Assembly (NCBI GenBank): GCA_013213825.1
Contig: JABSQA010000003.1
Location: forward strand, 1 to 64,000
Length of the DNA stretch: 64,000 bases
DNA from: Henriciella sp.
GTDB taxonomy: Bacteria > Pseudomonadota > Alphaproteobacteria > Caulobacterales > Hyphomonadaceae
Reading direction: 5' to 3'
This document shows, piece by piece, positions 57,845 through 62,192 of this stretch. A program made the position numbers and the translations under genes. The notes below the pieces were generated by a model. The model did no database searches. It was not told the DNA's origin and worked only from the letters and a program-made list of their open reading frames with translations. How positions within the stretch are numbered: position 1 is the first letter of the stretch; every line of letters begins with the position of its first letter.

Positions 57845-59035
57845 CTAAAGGCCAAGCACGCGTTTGGCGATGATATTTTTCTGAATCTCATTTGTGCCGC
57901 CATAGATGCTCTGCGCGCGGGCCCCAAAATAGGTTGATACGCCCGGCGCGGCATATGCTGTATGACCCGTCCAGTCAGGACTGACACTGTCATCAAATTT
58001 GCGTTGTCCATGCGATGCTGCAACGTCGAGGTAAAGCGTGGTGATTTGCTGCGCGGTTTCGGTCGCGAGAATCTTAATGATCGATGCTTCCTTTCCGGGA
58101 CTGCCGCCATCTTTTACCGCCGATAGCACGCGCAAGACCGTCATCTCTAGACCATCGACGGCGAGTTCCGCATCCGTAAGTTTGCGCGCAAAAGCGTCAT
58201 CATCGATGAGCTTACGATTGCCGCCTGTCGGCTCTGCCGTCGCCAAGGCGCGAATATGGCTCAATTGTTTGCGTTTGCCACCTATCCGCGCATATGAGGT
58301 GCGCTCGAAGCCGAGCAGATATTGGCTATAAGTCCAGCCTTTGCCTTCTTCGCCGATGAGATAATCAGCGGGCACGCGGACGTCGTCGAAGATGACCATG
58401 TTGAGGACATGTTTGCCATCAATGGTGATGATTGGTTTCAGCGTCACGCCTGGGCGATCCATCTCGGAACAAATGAAGCTGATGCCCATTTGTTTCTTTT
58501 CTTCCTTCGATGTGCGCGCAAGGATGAAGATCCAATCTGCGTGTTGCGCTGCGCTGGTCCAAATTTTGGTACCATTGAGCACGTACTCGTCGCCATCCCG
58601 CTTGGCTGAGAATTGCAATGAGGCGAGATCTGAGCCGCTATCCGGTTCGCTATAACCTTGCGCCCAGCCCAGTGAGCCATCGCGCGTTCCGGGCAACCAT
58701 TTTTCTTTTTGAGCGTCTGAGCCAAACGTATAGAAGATCGGCCCAACATAGATGACACCCATTGGCGTCACGGTCGGAATACCGGCCCGTTCAAGCTCTT
58801 CGTCGAAGATATACTGTTCTTCTAAGCCCCAGCCCGGGCCGCCATACTCTTGCGGCCAGGCCGATGCGAGCCAGCCTTTGGCGCCCAGCGCCATTTCGGA
58901 TTTTCGCACTTCAGCGGTGGTCAGACTGGCGCCGGTGGCGACTTTGGCGCGAATGTCTTGCGGGTATTCCGATTCAAAGAATTCGCGGACGTCTTTGCGG
59001 AACGGCTCAAGGGCGGGATTAGGTGATAGGTCCAT
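57845..59035 (-). CDS. Acyl-CoA dehydrogenase
   Basis: An FAD-dependent acyl-CoA dehydrogenase of 396 residues, the usual length. It has GYSEPDSGSDLASLQ (FAD- and substrate-binding), NGTKIWTSAAQHADW, and the C-terminal YGGTNEIQKNIIAKRVLGL that is the family signature. It introduces a double bond into an acyl-CoA in fatty-acid or branched-chain catabolism; the chain length is not clear. No acyl-CoA ligase or hydratase lies beside it. It may be co-transcribed upstream of the methyltransferase at 57218, 16 bases away. Confidence 0.92.
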   Translation of the reverse strand: MDLSPNPALEPFRKDVREFFESEYPQDIRAKVATGASLTTAEVRKSEMALGAKGWLASAWPQEYGGPGWGLEEQYIFDEELERAGIPTVTPMGVIYVGPIFYTFGSDAQKEKWLPGTRDGSLGWAQGYSEPDSGSDLASLQFSAKRDGDEYVLNGTKIWTSAAQHADWIFILARTSKEEKKQMGISFICSEMDRPGVTLKPIITIDGKHVLNMVIFDDVRVPADYLIGEEGKGWTYSQYLLGFERTSYARIGGKRKQLSHIRALATAEPTGGNRKLIDDDAFARKLTDAELAVDGLEMTVLRVLSAVKDGGSPGKEASIIKILATETAQQITTLYLDVAASHGQRKFDDSVSPDWTGHTAYAAPGVSTYFGARAQSIYGGTNEIQKNIIAKRVLGL

Positions 59036-59116: not shown

Positions 59117-60739
59117 CTAAGATAGCATTTGAGTGAACAAGGTCTCGGGATGCTGGAACATCCAATTGCGACCCGGGTGCGCGATATGGCTGAATTCTAC
59201 GCCGAGCCTTTCCGCATCCGCTTGGCTCTCCTCGGGGCCGACACCGTGCTGTTCCACACTGTTCAGGACGCGCACCGTGCCAGCGCGCGCCAGCAATGCC
59301 TCTAAATCTGGATTGGGCAAGAATGCCGATTGCAGGTCCAACCGCGAATTGTTTCGATCCGCAGTGGCAATATAGCCCGCCATCGCTGCGAACTGATCCA
59401 GATTGGCTTCGACATAGCCTGCGTCACTGCTCTGAGCGCGGTACAACATGCGATAAAACCGTTTACCGCCAAAGGTACGTAGCATGGAGCGCAAAGTTCG
59501 AATGCCGAAATTAAAACTGGTCGATGAACTGAGGCTCATTCGCAGGAGGCCCCTAATCCAAGCCGGCTGTATGCCCTTCAACTTGTCTTGGACGTTCAAG
59601 CCGTAATTCACCAGTAAAGTTTGGCCAATCCGGGCATTGCGATCCTGTACAAGTAATGCCAGCGGGGCTGCGGTCGACAAGCCGATTAGGGTTACGTCTT
59701 CAAGCTTTAACACTCTAATGAATTCAGCAATCAAATCGGCGGCTTCGGGAAGTGTTTCCGTGGCATTCGTGTCGCCAAAGCCAGGACGAATGGGAAAGAT
59801 CAGATTGAGGTGACGGGCGCGCGCCGCTTCGATCATTCTTTGAGATGGCATATAGCCATACTCAATCGAGTGGAGGACAATCACAGGATGGCCACTGGCG
59901 GATCCATACCGGCGATACTCCATCCGTGTTCCCGGTTGTTTTAATGAAATGCGCCGTGCCGCGCTTTCATCCGAGTCTCTCAATCGTTCTGCCGAGGGCG
60001 ATCGCAATTCTACTGCATTAGCAATCTCAATCGCGGTCGAGACCGTTTCGACCAAGCTGCGACATTGCATTTTCGAGTTGAGATGTGCGACATGGGTGCG
60101 GACGGTGTTCAATTTCCCACGTCGAATTTCGGCAATTTGGTCAAGCGAATGACGCTGCATAACCAATTGTAGAATCTCGATCTCGCTTTGTGTTAGACCA
60201 TGCTGCGTCTGCAGGTGTCCTCGAACGGAAGGGCTCAGTTTGGTCAATACGAGATAGGCGATGAAGCCGGATACGCTGTCGCCTTGTATGACTGGGCAGA
60301 TCTTGACTTGGCGCTTGATGCCAAACCGGTCTGTGAGCTCAATAACTTTGGCGCTGTTTTCGGTGTTTGCGGGATGTGTTCCGAGCGAACCAATGTCTAT
60401 GCGATCCCCCTCATTCAATCCAAAGCGGTCCGACAGCGATTTTGAGATATGCGCGATTTCGCCCGTCAGTGTGATTGAGAAAACCTCGTCTGCATCGATC
60501 TCTGGATCCGGCGCGCCCGCGCTGGCAGGACCTGAGGTCTGGGCTTTATCCGACAGCAAAGCGAGCACCGACAGGAAGTCCGGCATACGTGTTGCGTCGT
60601 CTGAGAGGCGCGACCAATCCAGGCAAGCTTGAGCAAATTGATCTGGGTCTTCGCCAGCCCTTGCCAAAGACCGCAAGAGTTCGAACGCAGCTTGCGCCCG
60701 TGGCTCTGAACCGATCTCAGAGGATTGTTTCTGATCCAT
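59117..60739 (-). CDS. LuxR-type HTH regulator fused to an alpha/beta hydrolase
   Basis: A 540-residue protein with three parts. Residues about 80-170 look like a PAS-like sensor (ITLTGEIAHISKSLSDRFG). Residues about 183-245 are a LuxR-type helix-turn-helix (LTQSEIEILQLVMQRHSLDQIAE, in two words, then TVRTHVAHLNSKM). Residues about 265-540 form an alpha/beta hydrolase, with an oxyanion-region VIVLHS, nucleophile candidate Ser in GLSTAAPLAL, and a late His near FQHPETLF. No acidic partner is certain. The hydrolase domain could sense or turn over a small ligand that controls DNA binding, as inference. The fusion order is unusual. Confidence 0.75.
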   Translation of the reverse strand: MDQKQSSEIGSEPRAQAAFELLRSLARAGEDPDQFAQACLDWSRLSDDATRMPDFLSVLALLSDKAQTSGPASAGAPDPEIDADEVFSITLTGEIAHISKSLSDRFGLNEGDRIDIGSLGTHPANTENSAKVIELTDRFGIKRQVKICPVIQGDSVSGFIAYLVLTKLSPSVRGHLQTQHGLTQSEIEILQLVMQRHSLDQIAEIRRGKLNTVRTHVAHLNSKMQCRSLVETVSTAIEIANAVELRSPSAERLRDSDESAARRISLKQPGTRMEYRRYGSASGHPVIVLHSIEYGYMPSQRMIEAARARHLNLIFPIRPGFGDTNATETLPEAADLIAEFIRVLKLEDVTLIGLSTAAPLALLVQDRNARIGQTLLVNYGLNVQDKLKGIQPAWIRGLLRMSLSSSTSFNFGIRTLRSMLRTFGGKRFYRMLYRAQSSDAGYVEANLDQFAAMAGYIATADRNNSRLDLQSAFLPNPDLEALLARAGTVRVLNSVEQHGVGPEESQADAERLGVEFSHIAHPGRNWMFQHPETLFTQMLS

Positions 60740-60883
60740 TTTTTTGAACTCTACGCGTTCGCTCCCAAGACCTCATTGAATGCCACTCGCGCGGTTTGTT
60801 CAAGCGTTCGAGGTGAAAAAGATCGGATTTCTACCAAATTTTGATTATTTCCGATGACGACAGAACTGCATATTCAGATCACT

Positions 60884-60974
60884 TGACGTTTACGTCATAC
60901 GGACCTTCGGCGCTGCCCACACCGCGTCGGAACCATTCGCCCACCGATAGATTCCCCTTTGTTTGTCGGTGGGC
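60884..60974. promoter_or_regulatory. Two inverted repeats upstream of the LuxR-hydrolase gene
   Basis: TGACGT (60884-60889) and ACGTCA (60892-60897) form a 6-bp perfect palindrome around TT. GCCCACCGA (60939-60947) and TCGGTGGGC (60966-60974) form a 9-bp perfect stem around 18 bases. The first could be a binding site for a dimeric regulator such as the fusion protein; the second could be a transcript hairpin, but no T-run follows. Nothing else is seen in 60740-61010. Confidence 0.45.
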
Positions 60975-61010
60975 TTACCGTCTTGTAAAATTGATCAGAT
61001 TTGACTCGGC

Positions 61011-62192
61011 TTAGCGGCCAAGCTCGCGCATGGCGCCGTCCAGACCTTCTAAAGTCATCTCGAACATCCGGTCTGGTCCGATGAGTTCACGGATCAATTG
61101 GATCGAGCCGGTATATTCCCAGGCGCCAGATTTAACTGGATTGAGCCAGGCAAAATTTGGGAATTGTTCAACAAAGCGCTGGATCCAAAGCCCGCCAGGC
61201 TCTTCGTTCCAGTGTTCCACCGAACCGCCGGCATAGGTGATTTCATACGGGCTCATCGTTGCGTCACCTACGACGATGACTTTGTACTCGCTCGGATATT
61301 TGTGCAGCACATCCCAGGTCGGGATGACATCATTGCGTCGCCGGCGATTATCCTTCCAGAGCCCTTCATAAGGGCAATTGTGGAAGTAATAATATTCAAG
61401 ATTCTTAATCTCTGCCCGGGCGGCGGAGAACAGCTCTTCCATGACTTTGACGTGCGGATCCATCGAACCGCCGACATCCATTAATAGAAGAACAGAGACC
61501 GTGTTTCGCCGCTCGGGACGCATCTCGATATCGAGATAACCTTGGCGAGCGGTGTTTTTAATCGTGGCGTCTAGGTCAAGCTCATCTGGCGCCCCGGTGC
61601 GCGCCCATTTGCGCAAACGTTTGAGCGCGACTTTGATATTACGTGTGCCGAGCTCGACACTGTCATCATAGTTTTTGAACTCGCGCTTGTCCCAGACTTT
61701 GGTCGCGCGCCGATGCCGCGACTTATCTTGCCCGATACGAATGCCTTCGGGATTATAGCCATTGGCGCCAAACGGTGACGTCCCGCCCGTGCCAATCCAC
61801 TTATTGCCGCCTTCATGGCGTTTCTTCTGTTCCTCGAGCCGTTTCTTCAACGTTTCCATCAGCTTTTCGAATCCGCCCATGGCTTCAATCTCAGCCATTT
61901 CCTCTGGCGAGAGAAACTTCTCGGTCATTTTGCGCAGCCATTCTTCTGGCAAGTCTTGCGCTTCAATTGCGTCACCCAACGTATCGAGGCCGTTGAAGAC
62001 ATGCCCGAAAACTTTGTCGAACTTATCGATATTACGTTCGTCTTTGACCAAAGCGGCGCGTGCGAGATAGTAAAAATCCTCGACGTCACGGTCGATCACG
62101 CCTTTGTCCATCGCTTCCATTAGCGCCAGATATTCTTTCAAAGTCACAGGTACTTTGGCAGCACGAAGCTCGTTGAAGAAATTTAGGAACAT
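61011..62192 (-). CDS. CoxE-like VWA domain protein
   Basis: A 393-residue cytoplasmic protein with a C-terminal von Willebrand A domain. The metal site motif is LLMDVGGSMDPHVKVMEELF (DxGxS in place of the usual DxSxS, as in this subfamily), with YYYFHNCPYEGLW and VVGDATMSPYEI further on. The N-terminal half is helical and charged. Family members often pair with a MoxR-type AAA ATPase to activate metalloenzymes; no such ATPase is adjacent here. Its role is unknown. Nothing is seen in the 168-base gap to pspF beyond spacing sequence. Confidence 0.85.
   Translation of the reverse strand: MFLNFFNELRAAKVPVTLKEYLALMEAMDKGVIDRDVEDFYYLARAALVKDERNIDKFDKVFGHVFNGLDTLGDAIEAQDLPEEWLRKMTEKFLSPEEMAEIEAMGGFEKLMETLKKRLEEQKKRHEGGNKWIGTGGTSPFGANGYNPEGIRIGQDKSRHRRATKVWDKREFKNYDDSVELGTRNIKVALKRLRKWARTGAPDELDLDATIKNTARQGYLDIEMRPERRNTVSVLLLMDVGGSMDPHVKVMEELFSAARAEIKNLEYYYFHNCPYEGLWKDNRRRRNDVIPTWDVLHKYPSEYKVIVVGDATMSPYEITYAGGSVEHWNEEPGGLWIQRFVEQFPNFAWLNPVKSGAWEYTGSIQLIRELIGPDRMFEMTLEGLDGAMRELGR

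Follow-up and report, generated by a model that had tools for sequence, protein, structure and literature searches.

Why should a LuxR-type regulator carry its DNA-binding domain in the middle of the chain and end in an alpha/beta hydrolase, and is that hydrolase an enzyme at all? The question is raised by a gene in a 64,000-nt window (the whole stretch of DNA that was analysed) from the genome of a marine Henriciella (3.6 Mb in 276 contigs). An earlier note on the same DNA had described the product as a central helix-turn-helix (HTH) followed by a hydrolase in one chain, and this is borne out by Pfam and by a single uninterrupted frame of 540 codons. The GerE/LuxR HTH covers residues 182-235 (E 2.5e-7, 30.7 bits against a cut-off of 23.5) and the Abhydrolase_6 match residues 299-484 (E 1.6e-6, 29.4 bits against a cut-off of 26.3). 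The HTH is thus central, with about 280 residues of hydrolase behind it, and does not have the C-terminal placement usual for LuxR proteins. Neither a receiver domain nor an autoinducer-binding domain was detected in the protein (Pfam, E<=1). The gene and its parts are:

59117-60739, minus strand: focal gene, PAS-like / LuxR HTH / pseudo alpha/beta hydrolase, candidate one-component regulator, 540 aa (ORF, Pfam, orthologs)
60242-60490, minus strand: PAS-like domain, residues ~84-166 (AlphaFold2 secondary structure; weak PAS_8 matches in relatives)
60002-60232, minus strand: LuxR/GerE HTH region, residues ~170-246 (GerE match; T212, R214, T215, H216 and K223 invariant)
59120-59956, minus strand: alpha/beta hydrolase-fold domain, residues 262-540 (Pfam, AlphaFold2, Foldseek to esterases at E ~1e-12)
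59285-59584, minus strand: helical lid region, residues 386-485 (AlphaFold2; invariant positions among orthologs)

The AlphaFold2 model, built with eight sequences, is of moderate quality (mean pLDDT 70.9, pTM 0.54) and leaves residues 1-80 unresolved. It places the HTH at residues 170-246 and a hydrolase fold with a helical lid (386-485) at residues 262-540. Foldseek matched PDB esterases with a best E of 2.5e-12 and, among the matches listed, TM-scores by target of 0.46-0.75; by Pfam and Foldseek, the C-terminal domain is a member of the alpha/beta hydrolase fold superfamily. The N-terminal domain, proposed at the outset as PAS-like, is a candidate PAS domain: the model has the PAS order of strands and helices at residues 86-163, and PAS_8 was matched in 2 of 17 wider-family members (Pfam, best E 2.3e-4), but the focal protein itself has no Pfam PAS match.

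In the alpha/beta hydrolase fold, the catalytic His belongs to a G-H motif that follows the last strand, and a conserved Pro comes seven residues later. Stand-alone control hydrolases show this motif in the alignment. At the same position, the ten sequences of the focal clade read G523-R524-N525-W/C-x-F-Q-x-P531, with G523, R524 and N525 invariant. The sites concerned are:

59675-59677, minus strand: Ser355, nucleophile position, kept in 10 of 10 clade members (clade alignment)
59249-59254, minus strand: Glu496-Gln497, acid-loop position (clade alignment)
59165-59170, minus strand: Arg524-Asn525 at the catalytic-His position, invariant in 10 of 10 (clade alignment)

The Ser/His pair suggested by the earlier note therefore survives only by half: the Ser is there, but the candidate catalytic His is absent and Arg524 stands in its place. 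A catalytic His elsewhere in the domain was considered and rejected: His290, in the oxyanion strand, is the sole invariant His of the domain among the ten members and His498 is kept in only eight. The nucleophile elbow is also altered: GxSTA or GxSTS replaces GxSxG. Asp-Gln occupies the acid loop in 8/10 sequences, Glu-Gln in 1/10 and His-Thr in 1/10, and in the focal protein the acid position is ambiguous between Glu496 and Gln497. As judged from the alignment, the focal domain does not have the nucleophile, acid and His set of catalytic alpha/beta hydrolases; the reading as a Ser/His enzyme is unsupported, and so is the choice of an esterase assay as the principal test.

Related HTH-hydrolase fusions, with open frames of ~510-930 aa, occur in many of the sampled Alphaproteobacteria, and most of this wider family has lost even the nucleophile. 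Nucleophile and His are both kept in 5 of 59 alphaproteobacterial fusions versus 8 of 11 stand-alone hydrolases found with the same profile (Fisher p 1.8e-5, a descriptive value, since the rows are related and not independent). The five fusions (L044-L048), which retain a Ser or Asp nucleophile together with the His, are possibly active or intermediate members. A second HTH-hydrolase gene lies in the focal genome itself (L068, G000:C218:22000-24209) and is cut by a contig end. A database search of plasmids and phages found no match. No description of LuxR-hydrolase fusions was found in the open-access literature, nor any account of the broad bacterial family that includes the focal protein; this is weak evidence of absence.

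Some stand-alone hydrolases (313-397 aa) are dead, having Gly in place of the nucleophile and Asp where the His would be; in a quick tree, which came with long-branch warnings, they group with the focal domains in a single clade (SH-aLRT 100). All nine genus carriers of the focal gene have two to four of them per genome (L088 and L089 in the focal genome; L090-L102), while none was found in the 20 other genus genomes; one more occurs in another genus of the family. The carriers need about three changes on an SDR gene tree, so this co-occurrence is for the most part explained by common descent rather than by a functional link.

The broken triad might suggest a domain in decay, and the pattern of conservation argues otherwise. 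Near-full-length relatives of the focal protein are found in nine genomes, eight of the same genus (Henriciella/Hyphomonas-type Hyphomonadaceae; 47-55% identical) and a ninth at order level (about 29%). The hydrolase (pairwise identity 0.55) is conserved about as well as the HTH (0.56), and the PAS-like part (0.37) is the least conserved folded domain, with 4 of 86 positions invariant. In the lid region, 19 of 101 positions (386-486) are invariant among ten orthologs, and the invariant hydrolase residues include LHS-x2-YGY, RPGFG, ST-x2-P and GRN. The dN/dS of the hydrolase half is 0.03-0.10 (four pairs, with dS saturated in some), and, in the pairs tested, both halves of the protein stay far below 1. 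Judged by these alignments, the hydrolase domain is not decaying but under strong purifying selection; its HTH-like identity together with the low dN/dS points to a domain retained for a purpose other than the chemistry of a triad. The protein as a whole nevertheless changes much faster than its neighbours: at three loci with the same flanking genes (L031, L033, L034), it is 50-55% identical, as against ~98% for the VWA gene (61011-62192) and 92-93% for the acyl-CoA dehydrogenase gene (57845-59035). In another lineage (L032, L035, L037), the upstream neighbour is a divergent gene, identified as DUF3291 in L035, and one downstream gene is common to L036 and L035.

What is demonstrated is a single gene with this architecture, a lost His, a retained Ser and a strongly conserved hydrolase domain. 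The reading that we favour, at a probability of about 0.6 from sequence, model and analogy, is a one-component regulator in which the hydrolase fold, deprived of its catalytic His, would serve as a binding pocket. The central LuxR-type HTH, between the PAS-like domain and the C-terminal hydrolase fold, would bind DNA. The helical lid would cover a small molecule in contact with Ser355 and the acid loop, for which an acyl or ester-like metabolite is no more than a guess. Closure of the lid might then alter the dimer or change how the HTH is presented, much as the plant receptor GID1 closes over gibberellin, although the domain order, with the hydrolase at the C-terminus, does not show by which route a signal would reach the HTH. 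The idea of the hydrolase as a ligand receptor, raised in the earlier note, gains support, as the His was lost while Ser, fold and lid were kept under strong purifying selection; the binding of a ligand is what we infer from this.

A dead hydrolase fold may have protein interaction as its sole function, and dead enzyme folds are often turned into scaffolds. The main rival, unlikely but the strongest of the alternatives, is that the hydrolase fold acts as a scaffold through which proteins make contact or dimerise, with the PAS-like domain as the real sensor. The absence of even the nucleophile from most fusions would fit such a role, as would the direct contact between hydrolase and PAS domain in RsbQ-RsbP (PMC3183031). 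Against it, the PAS-like part is the least conserved folded domain, and the invariant residues of the hydrolase include the four motifs named above, which in this fold surround the active site. The next rival, which we consider improbable, retains chemistry: Ser355 with a substitute base would form a working hydrolase or an acyl-enzyme, and catalysis or a covalent acyl-Ser would be the signal, as in D14. It draws on the retention of Ser355, where the dead stand-alone paralogs have Gly, on an acidic residue (Asp or Glu) that nine of the ten sequences have in the acid loop, and on the receptor DAD2/D14, which needs its triad (PMC3531792). The altered elbow and the invariance of only the oxyanion-strand His290 speak against it, Arg and Asn are unusual as general bases in this fold, and the lack of a His makes it less likely than the scaffold. 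That two genes were joined by a frameshift, an assembly error or a recent accidental fusion, which the earlier note had named as a possible objection, is refuted by the near-full-length relatives in nine other genomes (about 29-55% identical) and by the low dN/dS of both halves, and is given a negligible probability.

The DNA upstream of the gene contains a conserved element:

60880-60977, minus strand: conserved upstream element of 98 bases, two covarying hairpins and a palindrome (covariation, covariance-model search)
60939-60974, minus strand: hairpin 1, covarying stem with the invariant loop AAAGGGGA (covariation)
60899-60936, minus strand: hairpin 2, covarying stem, less regular (covariation, folding)
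60884-60897, no strand: palindrome TGACGTTTACGTCA (sequence, conservation upstream of orthologs)

The element is kept across both gene contexts in the order hairpin 1, hairpin 2, palindrome. Its covariation lies above all 500 shuffles and the slid controls, and the folding z-scores of individual sequences run from -2.6 to -4.9. With a covariance model, it was found once per genome, upstream of the focal gene, in 9/9 genus carriers and in none of 21 other genomes searched, including the one with the order-level relative (G044). Rfam gave no credible match. The element is possibly an RNA or a DNA element.

The palindrome, already noticed at 60884, is confirmed; the genus orthologs also have it upstream, mostly as TGACG-N4-CGTCA, with a five-base spacer in L035 and one changed base in L008. 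Exact copies of TGACGTTTACGTCA were found only in genus genomes that carry the focal gene. A second exact copy in the focal genome (L117, position 1501; G000:C202:12436-12449) lies in a divergent promoter that is conserved in the genus, between genes which we take, by reading without a profile search, to be SDR dehydrogenase-like and VOC/glyoxalase-like. At this SDR promoter, seven genomes that lack the focal gene have the site with a single mismatch, and the carriers G015 and G026 share the mismatch. The palindrome is for this reason not established as the operator of the focal protein; a genus-wide regulator is as likely to bind it as the focal protein. A LiuR-type operator is a possible identity, offered as a lead. 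Other TTGACG-N4-CGTCA sites outside called ORFs of the same genome are L107, L111 and L113, near genes that by reading look like lipid or acyl metabolism genes.

A wider proposal is more tentative: proteins built from a PAS-like domain, a LuxR HTH and a dead alpha/beta hydrolase may form a class of pseudohydrolase receptors in bacteria that bind DNA within the same chain, a prokaryotic analogue of GID1 with a direct connection to DNA. In the focal lineage, such a protein occurs together with the structured upstream element and with the stand-alone dead hydrolases, which might be its partners or decoys. If true, the making of a receptor from a hydrolase that lost catalysis would have arisen in bacteria on the scale of a family, with a direct coupling to transcription. 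Conservation of the Ser/Arg/Asn site would turn the identity of the ligand into a testable question, and the five fusions that kept nucleophile and His would offer a within-family series, possibly from enzyme to receptor.

Among known systems, LuxR/NarL-type regulators, including PAS-LuxR proteins, have an HTH of the same GerE family and, in a loose sense, a PAS-like domain ahead of it, but the focal protein differs in its central HTH and in the absence of any receiver or autoinducer domain match. In a census of actinobacterial LuxR architectures, the word hydrolase is absent from the main text (PMC3466318). The strigolactone and karrikin receptors D14/DAD2 and KAI2 are also small-molecule receptors with a hydrolase fold; however, the triad of DAD2 is intact and needed for signalling (PMC3531792), and these receptors do not bind DNA. 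The nearest bacterial idea is RsbQ with the PAS domain of RsbP, where a hydrolase fold and a PAS domain also form one signalling unit (PMC3183031). RsbQ is a separate protein that requires its triad, whereas the focal protein is one chain with a broken triad; the reported outputs of hydrolase-PAS modules are a PPM phosphatase, a histidine kinase and a diguanylate cyclase, with no DNA binding among them (PMC3183031), whereas the focal protein carries an HTH. GID1 is a non-catalytic gibberellin receptor proposed to have arisen from lipases when the active-site His was lost; its Ser and Asp contact the ligand (PMC3531792). It acts as a separate protein via DELLA proteins and belongs to the hormone-sensitive-lipase branch, whereas the focal fold is fused to a DNA-binding domain, is a putative ligand binder, and is an Abhydrolase_6 domain with no Abhydrolase_3 match (Pfam, E<=1). 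Both have the alpha/beta-hydrolase fold of a known or putative receptor, a lost catalytic His, a retained nucleophile Ser and a helical lid (PMC3531792), and by sequence and analogy the focal domain appears to resemble GID1 more than an active esterase.
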